64,000 nucleotides of DNA from Planctomycetota bacterium. Its GTDB lineage: Bacteria; Planctomycetota; UBA1135; UBA2386. How positions within the stretch are numbered: the first letter of the stretch is position 1; each line of letters begins with the position of its first letter. The stretch lies in assembly GCA_025459175.1 (NCBI GenBank), contig JALORC010000003.1, positions 1-64,000 of the forward strand, given 5' to 3'. A model generated the notes under the pieces. It worked only from the letters and a program-made list of their open reading frames with translations. It ran no database searches and was not told the DNA's origin. Shown here one piece after another: positions 37,951 to 50,129 of this stretch. The position numbers were made by a program, and so were the translations under genes.

Positions 37951-38541
37951 GTGGACCAAGGCTCGGTTGACCCGTTCGGCCCGCTGGTGGAGGCCGCGCT
38001 CGCCGGCGAACAGCAGGCACTGGCGCAGTTGTTCCGGCTCTGCCTGCCGGTGATCCAGGGGTGCGTCGACCGCGAGATGGGCCAGCACCTGCGCCAGCAG
38101 GAGTCCCGCGCCGACGTCGTGCAGTCCGTCTGCCGCGAAGTGCTCGAGGACTTCCGCCGCCAGATCTTCGAGTTCCGCGGCGAGGCGGAGTTCCGCGAGT
38201 GGTTGAAGCAGGCGACGTTGCACAAGGTGCAGGGGCGGGCGCGCTGGTTCTCGGCCCAGAAGCGAGACGCCGATCGGGCCGTTCCACTCGACTCCGGCAT
38301 CACCGCGCAATTGGCGGACTCGCGAACGCCCAGCCGCGCCGCCGCCGACCACGAGGAAATCGTGCGCTTCCGACAGGCGATGCAGCGCCTCGACGGCACG
38401 TCGCGCCAGGTGGTCGAGCTGGCGTGGTTCCAGCAGCTGTCCCACCGGGAGGTGGGCGAACGCCTGGGCATCACCGAGGCCCATTCGCGGGTGCTGCTGT
38501 CGCGCGCGTTGGCGCGCATCGCGAAGCTGGCGACCGAGTGA
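37951..38541 (+). CDS. ECF-type sigma factor, no adjacent anti-sigma
   Basis: 'QESRADVVQSVCREVLEDFRRQIFEFRGEAEFREWL', 'VVELAWFQQLSHREVGERLGITEAHSRVLLSRALARI'; GTG start. Confidence 0.85.
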   Translation: MDQGSVDPFGPLVEAALAGEQQALAQLFRLCLPVIQGCVDREMGQHLRQQESRADVVQSVCREVLEDFRRQIFEFRGEAEFREWLKQATLHKVQGRARWFSAQKRDADRAVPLDSGITAQLADSRTPSRAAADHEEIVRFRQAMQRLDGTSRQVVELAWFQQLSHREVGERLGITEAHSRVLLSRALARIAKLATE

Positions 38542-40643: not shown

Positions 40644-43181
40644 TCACTTGCCGGACTTCTCGCCCTTGTTGGCTTCATCGAATGCGTAGACACACAGATC
40701 GACGAACGAGACCTTGTTCTCCTGGGCGATCGCGAACAGCCGGCGAAAACTCTCCTCGACCTCGACGGGGAACTTGCCACCGCGGTACTCCTCGACCCAA
40801 CGGATCTGGTCCTGGATCAGGCGCAAGGCGCGTTTGCCGTCTTGAACGTAGATGAAGAAGGGATGCTTCTTGCCGGAGAAGTCGACCGGCACCGTCCACC
40901 TCCTCATGGGCCGCTTCTCGAAAGCCCCCCGGTCGCCCTCTTCGACGTCGGGAGGAGCGACACCGCGGGGGGACAGGACTTTGTACTTCGCGAGAAGTTC
41001 CTCTTTGCCGTCGATCCACAGGATCTCGCGCCAGCCTCGCCGCAGGAGTTCTTGCTGTCGGGTCCCAGCGCCGACTGCACGACAGGCCTCGGCGACGTCG
41101 AAGAACGTCGCCTGCAGGTTGCTGCGCACATACCACTCCCAGGGGCGCAACTCGAGGACCGATTCGGCCGCTGCCACGATGTCGTCGAGCAGACGGAACG
41201 CCTCCGCTTGTCGATCGAGGCGCACCATGGCCATGACGCCGAAGTTCGCGTGGGAGACGAGCGATTCGATTTCGCCATCGATACAGCTCCTCACATCGAT
41301 GCCCCCGAACGCATCCCGCCACAAACCTGCCACGCGCCGGTAGTCGCCATCGGCGATCCACGCCTTGACCACATCGACGGTCAAGTTCGTGAAGGTCGCC
41401 AGGTGATCCCTCCGGGCGAGCAGCCCCTCGCGTCGATACGTCGCGATCAGGCGATCGAGCATGCGAACGTACAGGGACTTTGCTTGGCGGGCTTGGTCGG
41501 TGTTCAGCTGGTCGGATGCCAGACGGACCTGTTCGTGATCGAGCAGGGTCAGCACCCCGACCATCGGCATGCCCTCGATCTCCTGAGCCGTCTCGGCGAG
41601 GACCGCGAGCGCCGCAGGGCGCTCGGCATCCGGGCCGACGGCAGCCGTCAACTGGCTCGCCAGGGTTGGCGCCATCCGCTGTGCCTTGGCTCGCCAATCG
41701 CCGGCATCGGCGGCACGGCGCAGCCACTGCTCGGCGAGCGCAGCGTCCGGTTTGGCTCCCGTACCGGTGTCGGCATGGAACGACGCCAGCCGCCGCATCG
41801 CGCGCGTGCTGCCGAGCGCCGCCGCACGCTCATAGAGTCCCATGGCACGGGGCCGGTCGACCGCGAAGCCGTTCTGCCCCCAACGGTAGCTGTCGGCAAG
41901 GTTCGTCATCGCCAATGGCGCGCCGGCATCCGCAGCTTGCTGCACCAAGCGGGTGTAGCGCGCCATGTCGACGGGAGTGCCGGTGCCCGACAGGTAGTTG
42001 ATGGCCAGCGTATTGAGCGCGTGCGGGTCGTTGCTCGCGGCAGACTTGGCGATCCAGCGGTGACCTGCAACGGGGTCCTTCTCGACACCAAGGCCCTCCA
42101 TCAAGCAGCGCCCCACGAATCCCTGTGCGCGAAGGTTGCCGAGCTGCGCGAACCGCATCCAGGCCTCGTAGCGGCCCGGAGCCCGGGAATCGTAGAACGG
42201 CGTCGTATCGCCGAGAGTCACGTGGCGCAGCCATTCGCGGATGTCGTCTTCGAGGGACTCGTCAGTGGGCTGAGCCGGCTGCCCAGGTTCGGTGGCAGTG
42301 AGTTGGCGCAACGGCAGGTCCGTGCTCGAGCCATTCCAGAACAGGTGTGGTTGCTGCCGAACGTGCCCGTACTTGATGCTCAGTTCGGCGAGACCGTCGG
42401 TCGTGTAGTCGGCGACCTCGCGAAACGTGACGATTCGGTCCGTGCGTGCTCGGCGCCCCGTGTCAGCCTCGCCGCGCAACCCGCGCAGCAGGTAGTGGGT
42501 GAACAGCCCGTTCTCGATCGTGTTGCCCGACTCGTCCTGCATTCCCGAATCCGGTTCGTACGACAGGGTGCCTGCCCAGGTCGAGAACAGCATGATCGAT
42601 CCGCGCGCCTCCGCGTAGCGAGCGAGTGACGGACCGGTGTCGTCCGCCGACTTGTCGTTCCGCTTGCGGCACATGTCGATGATGAGCACCGACTGCTTGC
42701 AACCGGTGTCCTGGAAGCGATCGCGGACGGCATCGAGGTCCAGCGCAGTGCTAGGCAGCTGCTTGCGGTCGGCGCCGAACGGGCACAGGAACACACGCCC
42801 GTCGGCGAGCTCGAAGCCGTGGCCGGAGAAGAAGAAGAACAGCACCGTGTCCGGGTCGGCGAGGCGGCACAGGTTCTCCACCTGGTTGAGAATCGCCCCG
42901 CTGCTCAGCGGCTTGGTTTCGCCGACCGCGCCACCGACGCGCATGCGCACCACGGAGAATCCGATCTGCTCCAGTTCGCGGCCTACGTCATCGGCGTCAC
43001 GTTCGGCGCAACGCAGCGGGGACAGGGTCTCGTAGTCGTTGCAGCCGACCACCAGCGCGAGCCGGCGCTCGGTGCGCTCCCCCGGGCCGGATGGTCGCAC
43101 GGCGACGTCGCGCCCGACCTGGGCGAACAGTGAGGCCGTGAGCAGGAGCAGGGACGAGAACAGTCGGAATGGGACGAGCAT
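40644..43181 (-). CDS. Secreted caspase-like (peptidase C14) protein with Sel1-like repeats
   Basis: 'RLALVVGCNDYETLSPLRCAERDADDV', 'LFFFFSGHGFE', 'VLIIDMCRKRND'; Sel1-type repeats; signal peptide. Confidence 0.85.
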   Translation of the reverse strand: MLVPFRLFSSLLLLTASLFAQVGRDVAVRPSGPGERTERRLALVVGCNDYETLSPLRCAERDADDVGRELEQIGFSVVRMRVGGAVGETKPLSSGAILNQVENLCRLADPDTVLFFFFSGHGFELADGRVFLCPFGADRKQLPSTALDLDAVRDRFQDTGCKQSVLIIDMCRKRNDKSADDTGPSLARYAEARGSIMLFSTWAGTLSYEPDSGMQDESGNTIENGLFTHYLLRGLRGEADTGRRARTDRIVTFREVADYTTDGLAELSIKYGHVRQQPHLFWNGSSTDLPLRQLTATEPGQPAQPTDESLEDDIREWLRHVTLGDTTPFYDSRAPGRYEAWMRFAQLGNLRAQGFVGRCLMEGLGVEKDPVAGHRWIAKSAASNDPHALNTLAINYLSGTGTPVDMARYTRLVQQAADAGAPLAMTNLADSYRWGQNGFAVDRPRAMGLYERAAALGSTRAMRRLASFHADTGTGAKPDAALAEQWLRRAADAGDWRAKAQRMAPTLASQLTAAVGPDAERPAALAVLAETAQEIEGMPMVGVLTLLDHEQVRLASDQLNTDQARQAKSLYVRMLDRLIATYRREGLLARRDHLATFTNLTVDVVKAWIADGDYRRVAGLWRDAFGGIDVRSCIDGEIESLVSHANFGVMAMVRLDRQAEAFRLLDDIVAAAESVLELRPWEWYVRSNLQATFFDVAEACRAVGAGTRQQELLRRGWREILWIDGKEELLAKYKVLSPRGVAPPDVEEGDRGAFEKRPMRRWTVPVDFSGKKHPFFIYVQDGKRALRLIQDQIRWVEEYRGGKFPVEVEESFRRLFAIAQENKVSFVDLCVYAFDEANKGEKSGK

Positions 43182-43472
43182 GGGCCGATTGCGGGCGGGA
43201 CCACATCACACGCAGCAAGGCAGTCGCCCGTCGTGTGAAGGGGACAGGGCGATCACCACCACCCTGCGGACCGGCTCGTACCCAGCGGGCGGAGCGGATC
43301 CGTTTTCATCCCCACCAAGGCGTCGGCTTCTGCTCGTGCGCCCGCCCCCACCCACACCAGCTGGTTCACGATCGCTTTCGCGGCCTGCTCGCGGTCGACC
43401 GGCACCTGAGTCCAGGGGCGCCAACTTCGCAAAATCCTGCAACGCGGCCGCCCGCACGATCCAGTATCGGCG

Positions 43473-46400
43473 ATGTTCGATCGGCCGACCCGACTGTTCC
43501 TGCGCTGGCGTGATCGCGGCGATGCCGCGGCGCTGGCCGAACTGTTCGATCGCACCGCCCCGGAGCTGCTGCGCCTGGCCGTGCACCTGTGCCGGCACGC
43601 GGTCGACGCGGAGGACGTGCTGCAGGCGACGTTCCTGGCGGCGATCGAGAGTGCGCAGCGCTTCGAACGCGGCCAGCGCGTGATGCCGTGGCTGACCGGG
43701 ATCCTGACGCACCGAGCGCTGGCGGAGCATCGGCGGCGGCAGCGGCTGCCGGTGGCGGCGGCCGACGGGGAGCGTGCGGGCGGCGGCGCGGAGCCGTTCC
43801 AGCATGCGCAATCGAGCGAACTGCACGCGAGCACGCGCGCGGCGATCGATCGCCTGCGCGAGCCGTATCGCCAGCCCACCATGCTGCGCCTCGTGCACGG
43901 CATGGAACCGGCCGAGATCGCGTTGCTGCTGCAGCGCAGCCCCGGCACCGTGCGGGCGCAACTGCATCGCGGGCTCGAACAGCTGCGGCGTCTGCTGCCG
44001 GCCGGCATCGCGACGTCGCTGGCGGTCGGCGCGTTCGCGGGCCGTGGAATGGCGGCCGTGAAGCAGGCCGTGCTCGCCGCGTCGCACACGCACGTGGTCG
44101 CAGCGAGTGTGGTCACCACCTCCGGATTCATCGCGGGAATGCTCATGGGGAAGAAGATCGTCGTCGGTGCAGGTGTGTTGCTCGCGTGGCTCGGCTGGTT
44201 CGCATGGGCCGCCGCGTGGCCTGACGAAACCGATGCGGAACCCGTGGCATTGGTCACGGCGAGCACGCCGGAGGTCACGCAGAGCGAGGTGGCGACCGCG
44301 GCGCCGACGTCCACCGTGACGCTGCCCGCGCCCGAACGCACGGACTCGACCCCGTCGCACGCGGGCACGCCGTGGCCGCTGCGCGGGCAGGTCGTCGATG
44401 GCGCGACCGGCGCGCCGATCGCGGGCGCAATCGTGTCGTTGACGGGGCCGCGGCGGCTGACGCTGCTCGACGTGCAGCGCGAACTCGGCGCCGCTGCCCC
44501 ACCGCAGGCCGACGGTGTGCCGGTGGGTTGCGGCGCGCCATGGCGGACACTTCGTCCACCTCCTGCCGTGCTCAGTGGCGATGTGCCGCACGACTTCCTG
44601 CTGCCGCCGACCGCGTCGATGCCGCGGCTCGCCACGACCACGACCGATGCCGCCGGGAGGTTCGATCTCGCCGTGCCCCCGACCGGTGGCATGGTGCGCG
44701 TCGAGCAGGCTGGCTACGGGGTCCGCTACGAGTCGATCGCCGAGGCACCCCAGCACCCGGTGCGGATCGAACTGTGCAAGCTGCGCACGGTGCGCGGACA
44801 CGTGCGCACCGACGACGGCACGCCGCTGCCGCACCCCGTGCAACTGGTGCTGCGCGCGATCGAGGGCGTGTGGTTCGCCACCACCGATCCCACGGGCCGC
44901 TTCACGGTCGACGTCGCGGCGCCGCAGCTGAGCACCGAGAGCCACACTCACGGTCTGGTCGTGGTCGGTGGCGAGCTGCTGCGCAGCTTCGACGGCGAGG
45001 AGGAGCTCGTGCTGACGCGCTTCGGCGGCCCGCGCCTGCACGTCGTCGATGCAGCCACCCAGCGCCCGATCGAAATCGTCCGGCTGGTGTCGTGGGACAC
45101 CGCAGGGTACCCCCAGCGGGCGGCCGCGTTGTTCGCGCCGAACGGCTATGTGTGGCTGCATTCGCCAGAGGGCCTGTCGGCAGGGTTGCACCCGCGGCCG
45201 AACGAGCGGCGCGACCCACTCGTGCCGCGGCTCGTCGTCTGGAGCGATGGCTATGGCAGCGAGGAACTGCGCGACCTGCCGATGCCGGGCAAGGACCCTG
45301 CGACCATCGAGGTGCGACTGCATCGAGGCGCGGTGGCCGCGCTGCGCGGAACGATCTCGCGCGCGGGCACCCCGCTGTCGGGTGTGACCACGCTGCTGCG
45401 CCCGGCGGCGCGCCTGCAATGGGGCGACCACGAATGGAAGACGATCGCGGCAGCCACGACGGACGAGCACGGCCGATTCGAACTGACGGCACCCGCTGGC
45501 GACCACCTGTTCGAAGCCCGCGATGCGAGCGGTCTGCGCATCCAGCAGCAAGTCACGGTCCCATCAGCGGCGTTGGTGCTCGACATCGAAGACGGCGCGT
45601 TCCTCGAGGTGCAGTTGACCGACGCGGCGGGTTCACCAGCCGTCGGCCACCTGGTCGCCGCCCAAGGCGCCACGGGACAGCAGCACAGCGCGAAGACGGA
45701 TGCCGTCGGCAACGCCAGGATCGGGCCCTATCAGCCCGGCCCGGTGACGATGTTCGCGGAACGGGTGGCGGGTCGTTGGGAGGACCGCCTCACCGAAGAT
45801 CTCACGCTCGGCAGAGGGGAGCGTCGGACGGTTCCACTTCGCATCACACCACCACCCCGCCTTCGCGTGCGCATCGCCTTCGACGGCGACGCGCCGCCGG
45901 AAGGCCTCGCAGGCTTCCGCGCCACTTGGTACGGGCAGTATGAGCCGTCACCGGTCGCGCCGGACGGCACCGTCGAGGCACAAGCACCACCCGACACGGA
46001 AGTCGCCATCCTCGGCCCTGGGTCGAGGACGTGGACGCGAACGATCCCGGCCGATGCTGTCGGCGAACACACGCTGCGGCTGCAGTGGCGCGGGCTCGCG
46101 TACTTCGGCACTCTGCAGGACCTGGATGGGAACGCGTTGCCGGGAGTCTCCGTGCGCGCTTACCCGATCGGGCTCAGCGGGGGGACGCAAGTCGTCACGC
46201 AGCGGGACGGTTCGTTCCGGCTCGACGGTCTGCTGCCGGTGCGCCACCGCATCAGCTTCGGGGATCAACCGCCGCATGAGGGCAAGAGCTTCCTGACTGC
46301 CGAGCCCCCGACTGCTTCGGGCGTCGAACTGGCACTACGCATCCCACTCGGCAACGAACCGTCGCAAGGTTCGCGGCTGCTGACCGGCACCGTGGCGGAT

Positions 46401-46652
46401 GCGAACGGGCCGATCGCTGGCGTGCAGTACATCATCGAATCGCTCTACCCGCAGTCCGCCGGCGTGCTCGCCGTGCTTGCCGCAGAAGGGGTCCAGCGTA
46501 CGGGGCACGACGGCGCCCTCCGGGGCAACGTCGCCGCGGCGCCGCGCCATCGTCTGCGGGTGTGGCCCGGGGCCGGCAAGCCCGCACTCGAGGAGGAGTT
46601 CACGTTGCCGGCGGGCACCGACGCGGTAGTGCGCGACTTCGTGCTGCGCTGA
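43473..46652 (+). CDS. ECF sigma factor fused via one TM to a large carboxypeptidase-regulatory-like extracytoplasmic region
   Basis: N-term sigma2/sigma4 'AVDAEDVLQATFLAAIESAQRF', 'EIALLLQRSPGTVRAQLHRGLEQLRRLLPAGI'; TM 'IVVGAGVLLAWLGWFAWAAAW'; repeats such as 'LRGQVVDGATGAPIAGAIVSL'. Confidence 0.85.
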   Translation: MFDRPTRLFLRWRDRGDAAALAELFDRTAPELLRLAVHLCRHAVDAEDVLQATFLAAIESAQRFERGQRVMPWLTGILTHRALAEHRRRQRLPVAAADGERAGGGAEPFQHAQSSELHASTRAAIDRLREPYRQPTMLRLVHGMEPAEIALLLQRSPGTVRAQLHRGLEQLRRLLPAGIATSLAVGAFAGRGMAAVKQAVLAASHTHVVAASVVTTSGFIAGMLMGKKIVVGAGVLLAWLGWFAWAAAWPDETDAEPVALVTASTPEVTQSEVATAAPTSTVTLPAPERTDSTPSHAGTPWPLRGQVVDGATGAPIAGAIVSLTGPRRLTLLDVQRELGAAAPPQADGVPVGCGAPWRTLRPPPAVLSGDVPHDFLLPPTASMPRLATTTTDAAGRFDLAVPPTGGMVRVEQAGYGVRYESIAEAPQHPVRIELCKLRTVRGHVRTDDGTPLPHPVQLVLRAIEGVWFATTDPTGRFTVDVAAPQLSTESHTHGLVVVGGELLRSFDGEEELVLTRFGGPRLHVVDAATQRPIEIVRLVSWDTAGYPQRAAALFAPNGYVWLHSPEGLSAGLHPRPNERRDPLVPRLVVWSDGYGSEELRDLPMPGKDPATIEVRLHRGAVAALRGTISRAGTPLSGVTTLLRPAARLQWGDHEWKTIAAATTDEHGRFELTAPAGDHLFEARDASGLRIQQQVTVPSAALVLDIEDGAFLEVQLTDAAGSPAVGHLVAAQGATGQQHSAKTDAVGNARIGPYQPGPVTMFAERVAGRWEDRLTEDLTLGRGERRTVPLRITPPPRLRVRIAFDGDAPPEGLAGFRATWYGQYEPSPVAPDGTVEAQAPPDTEVAILGPGSRTWTRTIPADAVGEHTLRLQWRGLAYFGTLQDLDGNALPGVSVRAYPIGLSGGTQVVTQRDGSFRLDGLLPVRHRISFGDQPPHEGKSFLTAEPPTASGVELALRIPLGNEPSQGSRLLTGTVADANGPIAGVQYIIESLYPQSAGVLAVLAAEGVQRTGHDGALRGNVAAAPRHRLRVWPGAGKPALEEEFTLPAGTDAVVRDFVLR

Positions 46653-47207: not shown

Positions 47208-49622
47208 TCAGAGCGCGCCGATCGTCAGGGTCAGGGCGTTGCTGCTGGTGTTCTCGAGAAACAGCAGGTTCGGGTCGACCTCGAGCAGGACGAGTTGCTG
47301 GTACAGCTGGAGGCCAGCGAGAGCCACGATGTCGGGGATGGCGAGCTGCGTGTCGATGGTGCCGGCGGTGGCGACGGCCAACTCGTAGAGGTCCGGCGTG
47401 ACCAGCAGGTTGCACGTCGGTGGACTCAGCGGCAGCAGGCTGGACAGCGGGACGCTGATCTGCGTCAAGCCGGTGGCGACGACGACCAATGCGAGCGACG
47501 GAATGGTCGTGCTGCGGGCCCGGAACATCGTGCCGATCCAGGGCAGGTTGGTAGCGCTGTAGGTGTTGGGGCCGCCGGAGCCGGGGCAGGCGATGCCGGT
47601 GGTGACCGTCGTGGCGGGGCAGGTTGGTGCGTAGCGTGCGAAATGGGTGGAGACGAACCCACCGGCGGTACTGAAGTCGCCGCCCGCCACGACGTCGCCA
47701 TTCGGCAGCACGGCCAGGGCATGGACAGAGTCGTTCATGCCGCTGCCGAGCGCCGACCAGGTGCCGCCCTTCCAGCGCGCGATGCGGTTCGCGGCCACGC
47801 CGCCCGCGGTCGTGAAGGAGCCGCCCGCCACGAGGGAGCCGTTCGGCAGCACGGTCAGGACATTGACGGTAGGGAAGATGCCGGTCATGCCGCTGCCGAG
47901 CGCCGACCACGCGCTGCCATCCCAGCGCGCGATGTTGTTCGCGGGGGTGCCGCCGGCAGTCGTGAAGGAGCCGCCCGCCACGAGGTCGCCGTTCGGCAGC
48001 ACGGTCAGAGCATAGACAATGCCGCCCATGCCGCTGCCGAGCGCCGACCATGTGCTGCCATTCCAGCGCGCGATGTAGCTCGCGGCGGTGCCACCGGCGG
48101 ACGTGAAGAAGCCGCCCGCCACGAGGTCGCCGTTCGGCAGCACGGTCAGGACATTGACCGAGCCGAAGGGGCTCACGCCGCTGCCGAGTGCCGACCACGT
48201 GCTGCCATTCCAGCGCGCGATGCAGTTCGCGGACACGCCGCCGGCATTCGTGAAGTTGCCGCCCGCCACCAGGTCGCCGTTCGGCAGCACGGTCAGGGCG
48301 TGGACATCGTTTCTCATGCCGCTGCCGAGCGCCGACCACGTGCTGCCATTCCAGCGCGCGATGCGGTTCACGACGGCGCCGCCAGCGGTCGTGAACGAGC
48401 CACCCGCCACCAGGTCGCCGTTCGGCAGCACGGTCAGGGCAAGGACATCGTGGCTGATGCCGATGCCGATGGCGAGCGCCGACCACGAGCTGCCATTCCA
48501 ACGCGCGATGTTGTTCGCGGCCGTGCCGTCGGCAGTGCCGAACACGCCGCCTGCCGAGAGGTCGCCGTTCGCCAGCACGGTCAGGGCATTGACAGAGCTG
48601 TCCATGCCGCTGCCCAGCGCCGACCACGTGCTGCCATTCCAGCTCGCAATGCGACTCGCGCTGAGGCCGCCTGCGAGCGAGAAGGCGCCGCCCACCACGA
48701 GGTCGCCGTTCACCAGCACGGTCAGGGCATTGACCGTGCTGGTCAAGCCACTGCCGAGCGCCGACCACGTACTGCCACTCCAGCGCGCGATGAAGTTCGC
48801 GGAACCACCGCCAGCGGTCGTGAAGAAGCCGCCCGCCACGAGGTCGCCGTTGGGCAGCACGGTCAGGGCAGAGACAGTGTTGTCCATGCCGCTGCCCAGC
48901 GCCGACCACGTGCTGCCATTCCAGCGCGCGATGCGGTTCGCGGCGGTGCCGCCGGCGGTCGTGAAGCTGCCGCCCGCCACGAGGTCCCCGTTCGGCAGCA
49001 AAGTCAGGGCGTTGACTGTGTTGTCCATGCCACTGCCCAGCGCCGACCACGTGCTGCCATTCCAGCTCGCGATGCGGCTCACGGCGGTGCCGCCGGCGGT
49101 CGTGAAGCTGCCGCCCGCCACGAGGTCGCCGTTCGCCAGCACGGTCAGGGCGCGGACCGTGCCGCTCATGCCGCTGCCGAGCGCCGACCACGTGCTGCCA
49201 TTCCAGCGCGCGATGCGGTTCGCGGCGGTGCCGCCGGCGGTCGTGAAATCACCGCCCGCCACGAGGTCGCCGTTCGGCAGCACGGTCAGGGCATGGACTT
49301 GGAAGTTCATGCCGCTGCCGAGCGCCGACCACGTGCCGAGCAGCGGGTCGTAGGTGGCGATTTGGCTCGCCAGTACATTGCCGGCCAGCGCGAAGAATCC
49401 AGCGACGACGAGCAAGGGGGCCGCTGGGCCCGCGCCATCTGGATCCCAGCTCACAGTTGCGCTCACCGTGCCAGCGACTCCAGGCACCCCATCCCCTGGC
49501 AGCCATTGTGGTTGGCACTGAGCCATCGCCGACGAAGCGCCCCAAGAAAGCGCGCCTGCAATCAGGAGGCTGCGCAGGCGCGAACAGTGCAGGGAGAGGA
49601 AGCCAGATGCCGGGGAGTTCAT
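47208..49622 (-). CDS. Secreted tandem-repeat (beta-propeller-like) protein with shared C-terminal domain
   Basis: Twelve ~47-aa units 'ALTVLPNGDLVAGGSFTTAGGTAANRIARWNGSTWSALGSGM'; C-term 'LAIPDIVALAGLQLYQQLVLLEVDPNLLFLENTSSNALTLTIGAL'. Confidence 0.9.
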   Translation of the reverse strand: MNSPASGFLSLHCSRLRSLLIAGALSWGASSAMAQCQPQWLPGDGVPGVAGTVSATVSWDPDGAGPAAPLLVVAGFFALAGNVLASQIATYDPLLGTWSALGSGMNFQVHALTVLPNGDLVAGGDFTTAGGTAANRIARWNGSTWSALGSGMSGTVRALTVLANGDLVAGGSFTTAGGTAVSRIASWNGSTWSALGSGMDNTVNALTLLPNGDLVAGGSFTTAGGTAANRIARWNGSTWSALGSGMDNTVSALTVLPNGDLVAGGFFTTAGGGSANFIARWSGSTWSALGSGLTSTVNALTVLVNGDLVVGGAFSLAGGLSASRIASWNGSTWSALGSGMDSSVNALTVLANGDLSAGGVFGTADGTAANNIARWNGSSWSALAIGIGISHDVLALTVLPNGDLVAGGSFTTAGGAVVNRIARWNGSTWSALGSGMRNDVHALTVLPNGDLVAGGNFTNAGGVSANCIARWNGSTWSALGSGVSPFGSVNVLTVLPNGDLVAGGFFTSAGGTAASYIARWNGSTWSALGSGMGGIVYALTVLPNGDLVAGGSFTTAGGTPANNIARWDGSAWSALGSGMTGIFPTVNVLTVLPNGSLVAGGSFTTAGGVAANRIARWKGGTWSALGSGMNDSVHALAVLPNGDVVAGGDFSTAGGFVSTHFARYAPTCPATTVTTGIACPGSGGPNTYSATNLPWIGTMFRARSTTIPSLALVVVATGLTQISVPLSSLLPLSPPTCNLLVTPDLYELAVATAGTIDTQLAIPDIVALAGLQLYQQLVLLEVDPNLLFLENTSSNALTLTIGAL
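47640..49350 (-). repeat. Twelve in-frame tandem repeats of about 141 bp inside the propeller-like CDS
   Basis: Recurring DNA string 'ctgccgagcgccgaccacgtgctgccattccagcgcgcgatg' with small in-frame indels. Confidence 0.9.
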
Positions 49623-49734
49623 GAGGCGTGCCGAGCGAAAAGGGAACCGAATGCACCGATCGTGGTGAAACAAACTGCGGTCCCGGGCCCTCTCGAACCA
49701 AGGGCCATCCTCCCACACCCGCACGACCGCGTCC

Positions 49735-49800
49735 GGCCGTTCACTCCCGCCCGGTCCCGCCGTTTCGCACCCCGCCGGAGCCGCCTTCGCGTCCACGGGC
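49735..49800. repeat. Intergenic repeat copy A
   Basis: 'cggccgttcactcccgcccggtcccgccgtttcgcaccccgccggagccgccttcgcg' similar to copy B at about 50130-50193. Confidence 0.4.
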
Positions 49801-50129
49801 ACAGCGCTCCTCGCCGTGACCTGCGCGACGCGCTCGAGGCCAGGGTTGAAGCCTGGTAGGTCCCGCTCGAACGGAAGAACTGGAAGGTAGCAGAAAACAA
49901 GGCACTCATGCTGTTGCTCGGGCTCGAGCTGGCGCCAGCCGGGATCGAGTCCGCGGTGGGCCCGGCGCCGCAGGTCATCGTGTTCAAAGCAGTCAGGCCG
50001 CGGCCCCGGATCATCCGGAACCCGCAGCCAGCATCCCCTCTCACGTCAGCACGCGACGCCGCCCTTCAGCTTTTCGGCAGGTCTTGGAGCGCGCTCGCCG
50101 CACAGGCAGAAGCCGCGCGGCCAGCCGCT

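Follow-up and report, generated by a model that had tools for sequence, protein, structure and literature searches.

A few ECF systems are known in which the sigma factor is part of a longer, membrane-anchored chain. In IutY of Pseudomonas putida (group ECF243), the sigma and anti-sigma functions are present in one polypeptide, and Prc and RseP cut this polypeptide to free the sigma part (PMC5411451). In the groups ECF48, ECF52 and ECF53 of Actinobacteria (e.g. SCO4117), a C-terminal extension contains a TM helix and an extracytoplasmic part, and proteolysis has been proposed (PMC8999054). A tethered ECF sigma factor that is released by proteolysis is thus a known kind of regulator, proven for IutY and proposed for ECF48/52/53. 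Within Planctomycetes, some members of ECF57 carry WD40-rich C-terminal extensions (PMC8999054), and the recovery of ECFs of Tuwongella immobilis in Triton/SDS fractions (PMC8567305) provides indirect support for membrane association of planctomycete ECFs. In-frame internal translation starts are likewise known from other proteins, viz. Cas8b/Cas11b (PMC11899642), the CTP1L endolysin (PMC4777826) and VirF30/VirF21 (PMC5101355).

The gene described here lies within a stretch of 64,000 nucleotides (the window) from a Planctomycetota MAG of 7.55 Mb (completeness 93.75, contamination 5.78). An initial annotation of this stretch had proposed that a single open reading frame joins a complete sigma2/sigma4 ECF region, through a TM helix, to an extracytoplasmic region of ~750 aa, and that such a protein would do without a separate anti-sigma. 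The reading that we favour, and regard as fairly probable, retains this proposal and extends it: the gene would encode an autoregulated membrane-tethered sigma factor and, alongside it, a TM-ectodomain copy that lacks the sigma part.

The frame of the full-length tethered sigma factor is uninterrupted from its ATG to its stop codon (43473-46652, + strand; 1059 aa, with Pfam domains along its length), and GC3 across the junction of the sigma and ectodomain parts stays at 0.75-0.95. An independently assembled ortholog, which is 90% identical over aa 1-249, keeps the frame continuous and open to the end of its contig, and the same continuous frame is seen in a 1125-aa homolog with 59% identity to the window protein and in dozens more. 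When the window gene is compared with a close ortholog, dN/dS is 0.26 for the sigma part, 0.46 for the linker and 0.34 for the ectodomain; due to the low values for sigma and ectodomain, both halves of the gene are seen to be maintained, and both are under purifying selection. A missed stop or a frameshift between the sigma and extracytoplasmic parts, which the initial annotation had named as the observation that would speak against the fusion, was looked for and is not the case; a frame error of this kind is ruled out by the orthologs, the paralogs, dN/dS and GC3. No natural split, i.e. a sigma gene that stops before the internal ATG described below, was found among the short open frames examined, as these frames, considered as candidates for split versions, were either cut off by the end of a contig or, for L131, belonged to a truncated copy.

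The sigma part consists of region 2 (aa 24-91; 43542-43745, +; Pfam Sigma70_r2, 48 bits) and region 4 (aa 122-171; 43836-43985, +; Pfam Sigma70_r4_2, 40 bits), so that the ECF region is complete, as had been proposed. The presence of sigma2 and sigma4 only, without sigma3 or sigma1.1, places it in group 4 (ECF), and the protein matches the NCBIfam sigma70-ECF superfamily with 67 bits against a cut-off of 42.9. Sigma factors of this group transcribe from AAC/GTC-type promoters with core RNAP; for the window protein, a motif of ECF-like type lies ahead of its own start (see below). In region 2 the residues D48, Q51 and W73 are near-invariant among 99 homologs, R166 and R172 are conserved in the homolog alignment of region 4, and the N-terminal part of the predicted model matches the structures of SigH, SigL, AlgU and SigW in Foldseek searches.

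Between sigma4 and the TM segment, the homolog alignment reveals a conserved juxtamembrane helix, RGMAAVKQAVLAAS (aa 191-204; 44043-44084, +; predicted helix 193-223), for which the family consensus is RGLAAVRxAVLxA and position 197 is basic in 94/98 sequences. Neither an anti-sigma nor a zinc-binding domain was detected by Pfam between sigma4 and the TM (aa 172-300), the linker lacks Cys (the Cys residues of the protein are at positions 40, 353 and 435 only), and no RAPP-type arrest motifs were found in it. The TM helix itself (aa 229-247; 44157-44213, +), preceded by GKK and followed by Pro and acidic residues, is the strongest hydrophobic segment of the protein (KD 1.92). In the AlphaFold model, too, residues 229-247 form a helix, and what lies C-terminal to them is all beta; the TM call thus combines hydropathy with a model of modest confidence (mean pLDDT 69, pTM 0.44), and due to this pLDDT no arrangement of the domains is claimed. 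A two-TM hairpin involving the hydrophobic aa 207-226 was also considered and is unlikely, as this segment is separated from the TM by GKK only. Of 52 long and complete members in which a TM is present, 50 have K/R as the first charged residue before the TM; a total of 84 K/R vs 7 D/E is found in the 10 residues that precede it, and D/E are enriched after it. This pattern supports a predicted N-in/C-out topology, in which the helix would serve as a membrane tether. After the TM, a flexible linker (aa 250-300; 44220-44372, +) is modelled with low confidence and leads into the extracytoplasmic region (aa 301-1059; 44373-46649, +), a chain of CarboxypepD_reg and Ig-, CnaB- and macroglobulin-like beta modules. 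Six stretches of the protein match CarboxypepD_reg in Pfam (102 bits), and the beta part of the model matches pilin, SdrD, CnaB and macroglobulin modules in Foldseek searches; the repeated regulatory/transthyretin-like modules of the initial annotation are thereby borne out, and its TM helix and the topology, for which it had suggested a check, are supported by the predictions above. In the comparison with the close ortholog, the segment at 44148-44372, which covers the TM (dN/dS 1.7, 25 codons only) and the post-TM linker (1.1, 50 codons only), shows values of ~1-1.7 over few codons, and the domains flanking it are constrained.

The search for the same architecture, which had also been suggested, shows that the gene belongs to an expanded family of tethered sigma factors. 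The source genome contains about twenty close paralogs with frames of ~850-1100 aa; 19 members within it share the sigma-TM layout, and CarboxypepD_reg is present in 9/9 of the own-genome paralogs scanned. This genome has 114 Sigma70_r2 matches, of which 32 are in stop-to-stop frames of >=800 aa, the latter number being a count of sigma2-bearing open frames of which only part are confirmed as fusions. Strong family matches are found in 35/61 genomes (relatives plus the source genome), one of which has 35 copies, and in relatives the number of members reaches at least 35-40; the named close relatives of the window protein are Planctomycetota MAGs, and the median identity among family members is 36%. 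In a sample of the phylum, matches were obtained in 226/294 genomes, many of the weaker ones being ordinary sigma factors. The paralogs, like the promoter and the internal start described below, escaped the initial annotation because they are invisible from one gene. In each of two relatives (L130, G147:C105:1-8007; L136, G194:C90), a single contig holds three tethered sigma genes within a short distance of each other, and in a degenerate paralog (L037:6318-7646, -) sigma4 and the TM are missing and sigma2 is directly followed by an ectodomain module. The source genome also contains 110 protein-kinase matches at E <= 1e-10, many in frames near 1000 aa.

No conserved partner gene or anti-sigma-like neighbour recurs across 20 own-genome loci, except for a common family of secreted beta-propellers; together with the lack of such a domain in the linker, this agrees with the earlier suggestion that no separate anti-sigma is involved. 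In the window, a secreted beta-propeller protein of DUF5122/Rax2 type is encoded downstream of the sigma gene (47208-49802, -); homologs of it are also present close to five further paralog loci of the source genome, for which the abundance of the family is the probable reason. Divergent from the sigma gene, and sharing with it a 291-bp intergenic region, is a gene for a caspase-domain (Peptidase_C14) protein with Sel1 repeats and a C-terminal DUF2610 (40644-43181, -). Further upstream, a soluble ECF-like sigma with a clear sigma4 and a weak sigma2 (37951-38541, +) directly precedes a gene for a secreted CIA30-fasciclin protein.

An ECF-type promoter is predicted before the window sigma gene. 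It consists of the -35 element ATCCTGCAACGC, 9 nt, and the -10 box CACGATCCA (43434-43463, +), and was recognized by a two-box motif learned by EM from 80 upstream regions of the family; a search based on trinucleotide pairs gave noise only, and the two-box EM did better. Within the 64 kb, both strands included, this site matches the motif best, and of the neighbouring genes 1/120 is above the motif threshold. The family motif (TTCCTGxAACGC, 9-10 nt, xCGGTCxA-type) is found just upstream of sigma starts. When half of the data were used for training, held-out recovery was 13-22/41 vs 1% expected, with a learned consensus that was unstable between splits; in the 29 most divergent members the motif was seen in 1/29 only. 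The promoter of the window gene is conserved in its orthologs L041 and L042. Genome-wide, the exact pattern has 12 matches, among which only the window gene's own also fits well in -35 context and start spacing, and for this reason no regulon is claimed. The presence of a promoter of this type before a gene for an ECF sigma suggests that the tethered sigma may be autoregulated. The promoter ends 9 nt before the sigma ATG, which indicates that the full-length mRNA probably has no leader or hardly any; an SD sequence precedes the sigma start in 12/95 members only.

The picture at a second, internal site is of a different kind. In most members Met-Lys-Lys or a similar sequence stands just before the TM, the internal Met codon is ATG in 62/95 (GTG is used where it is Val), and GGA-rich glycine codons precede it. 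In 54/95 diverse members an SD tetramer is present upstream of the site, compared with 8.3 expected from synonymous-codon resampling of each gene (z 17.5), and after thinning to representatives of <55% identity the count is 44/77 vs 7.0 expected (z 15.4). Of the 121 codon offsets scanned, anti-SD pairing exceeds the synonymous null at -1 to +2 codons of the site only; the logo shows GGAGG at -12 to -8, and the spacing is mostly 6-8 nt. GGA, the rarest Gly codon, accounts for 70/105 Gly codons at the site vs 772/7352 elsewhere, and where Val replaces Met behind GGA-GGx or GGA-GCx, its codon is GTG in 12/12 cases. The pattern is replicated in distant families with other ectodomains, e.g. PQQ propellers (SD 34/56 vs 8.6 expected; GGA 46/64 vs 398/3321), and kinase-TM control proteins of the same genomes show no SD enrichment (2/37 vs 4.5 expected). 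The CCTCC anti-SD is intact at the 16S 3' end of relatives from the family and order, from which it was read because the 16S is absent from this MAG. The scan of the whole family chose start codons close to the TM lysine and gave preference to ATG, and the start-codon counts are therefore partly by construction; the synonymous-codon SD test is unaffected by this rule. It is clear from these results that an internal SD and start codon are under selection at the family level. We infer from them that initiation may actually occur at the internal site and that two products would be formed in some ratio, so that one gene probably yields a tethered sigma and a sigma-less copy of the sensor. Dual products should not be taken as universal, as a strict SD plus ATG is present in only 7/19 own-genome members with a TM, and several are without any plausible start and SD.

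In the window gene, the corresponding site consists of the tandem start codons ATG CTC ATG (aa 223 and 225; 44139-44147, +) and a weak Shine-Dalgarno-like CGGGA (44134-44138, +), 6 nt before the second ATG, where the family consensus is GGAGG. The proposed start of a short product here draws on the family-level evidence and is weak for this gene by itself: there is no strict SD, the pairing energy is -4.0, and 17% of synonymous versions reach the same value, so that the site is not significant alone. The putative short TM-ectodomain product, of about 835 aa, would extend over 44145-46652. It could be argued from the weak SD that the window gene has no functional internal start, and that only the full-length protein matters, as a plain tether released by regulated intramembrane proteolysis. 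The tether-and-release of IutY works without a reported short form (PMC5411451), and paralogs without an internal SD keep the same architecture. However, most of the family, and distant families as well, show strong and specific selection for an SD and start codon, and the window gene retains tandem ATGs at this position, with the best SD-like pairing among its ten ATGs examined. We consider this alternative unlikely, although it deserves more weight than those that follow.

The internal GGAGG could also act as a pause site, which slows ribosomes for membrane insertion and has no role in initiation. Pausing at SD-like sequences has been proposed in general, and GGAGG does lie directly before the TM segment. 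However, the kinase-TM proteins show no such enrichment, the spacing is canonical for initiation, and pausing does not require ATG or GTG, yet the Val replacements use GTG without exception; this explanation is thus very improbable. To the same low degree we credit the possibility that the site dates from an event in which a sigma gene became fused to a downstream membrane-protein gene, whose old ribosome-binding site has persisted. Separate genes for sigma and a membrane-anchored regulator have been described as the ancestral ECF arrangement (PMC8103513), and MKK-TM resembles an N-terminal signal anchor, but at the median identity of this family an SD in rare codons would not have survived without a use; a fusion origin is, however, compatible with a present function of the internal start. 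Least credible of all is that the sigma domain is now a membrane-held decoy that binds DNA or RNAP, for although permanent tethering would hinder normal initiation and no regulon is known, the core-binding and promoter-contact positions are near-invariant across the 99 homologs, the sigma part has the low dN/dS given above, the model resembles the sigma structures of SigH/SigL holoenzymes, and ECF-type promoters stand before the genes.

Returning to the tethered sigma factor with a sigma-less copy, its working may be pictured as follows. The ECF-type promoter would drive a (nearly) leaderless mRNA, on which initiation at the 5' ATG would give the full-length tethered sigma, and initiation at the internal SD/ATG would give the TM-ectodomain copy with the same periplasmic part. 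Membrane location, possibly with the conserved juxtamembrane helix, would keep the full-length sigma off core RNA polymerase, and the periplasmic beta modules would be the sensing or partner-binding part. As both copies would share one periplasmic task or ligand, the short form could be the bulk component and the long form a reporter in the same population. Upon a periplasmic perturbation, proteolysis of the long form within the TM or close to it, comparable to that of IutY by Prc and RseP, would release the sigma, which would then transcribe its own gene and perhaps others. By analogy, proteolytic release is the most likely route and a plausible one, and M50 site-2 proteases are present in the source genome; both this proteolysis and a ligand of the periplasmic part are what we infer. 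More tentatively, and with less confidence than in the reading for this gene, we suggest a phylum-wide planctomycete class in which one frame would give a leaderless-translated tethered sigma and an SD-translated sigma-less sensor copy, the sigma output reporting on, and being titrated by, an identical extracytoplasmic pool. If true, a single gene would here take the place of the sigma/anti-sigma operon. Should the internal start work, translation would set the ratio of signalling to non-signalling receptor for each gene, and any transcriptomic or knockout reading would affect two proteins.

Neither this class of ectodomain nor the internal start was found in the literature searched; the principal papers on ECF classification and on planctomycete ECFs lay outside this search, and therefore the architecture may already be catalogued. 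The remark in the initial annotation that this sensor could not be named was a fair one, as the ECF reviews covered do not name an ectodomain of its type. Like the window protein, IutY combines a cytosolic ECF sigma, a single TM and a periplasmic domain in one chain, and proteolytic release would be the obvious mechanism common to the two. However, IutY has 374 aa, its periplasmic domain is a cell-surface-signalling anti-sigma domain, and its partner is a TonB-dependent receptor, whereas the window protein has CarboxypepD_reg modules over ~750 aa, tens of paralogs, no neighbour of that kind and, in its family, an internal start; no FecR-like/CSS anti-sigma domain was detected in it by Pfam. 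The ECF48/52/53 proteins share with it a C-terminal extension with a TM and an extracytoplasmic part, but have a zinc-finger anti-sigma domain before the TM, which the window protein lacks. ECF57 resembles the window family in that C-terminal extensions are very large and paralogs are numerous and young, and some ECFs are found in detergent fractions; in domain content, on which this comparison is based, the window protein differs in having beta-sandwich modules and no WD40 (Pfam). Tethered ECF sigmas are usually held to be rare oddities (IutY, a few actinobacterial groups), whereas here they would form a major signalling class. Cas8b/Cas11b, CTP1L and VirF30/VirF21 each provide two in-frame products, of which the short one has the C-terminal part in common with the long one and works with or against it, but none of them is a sigma factor and none splits a transcription factor from a membrane sensor. 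In comparison with the known tethered ECFs, the new element is the probable sigma-less second product.
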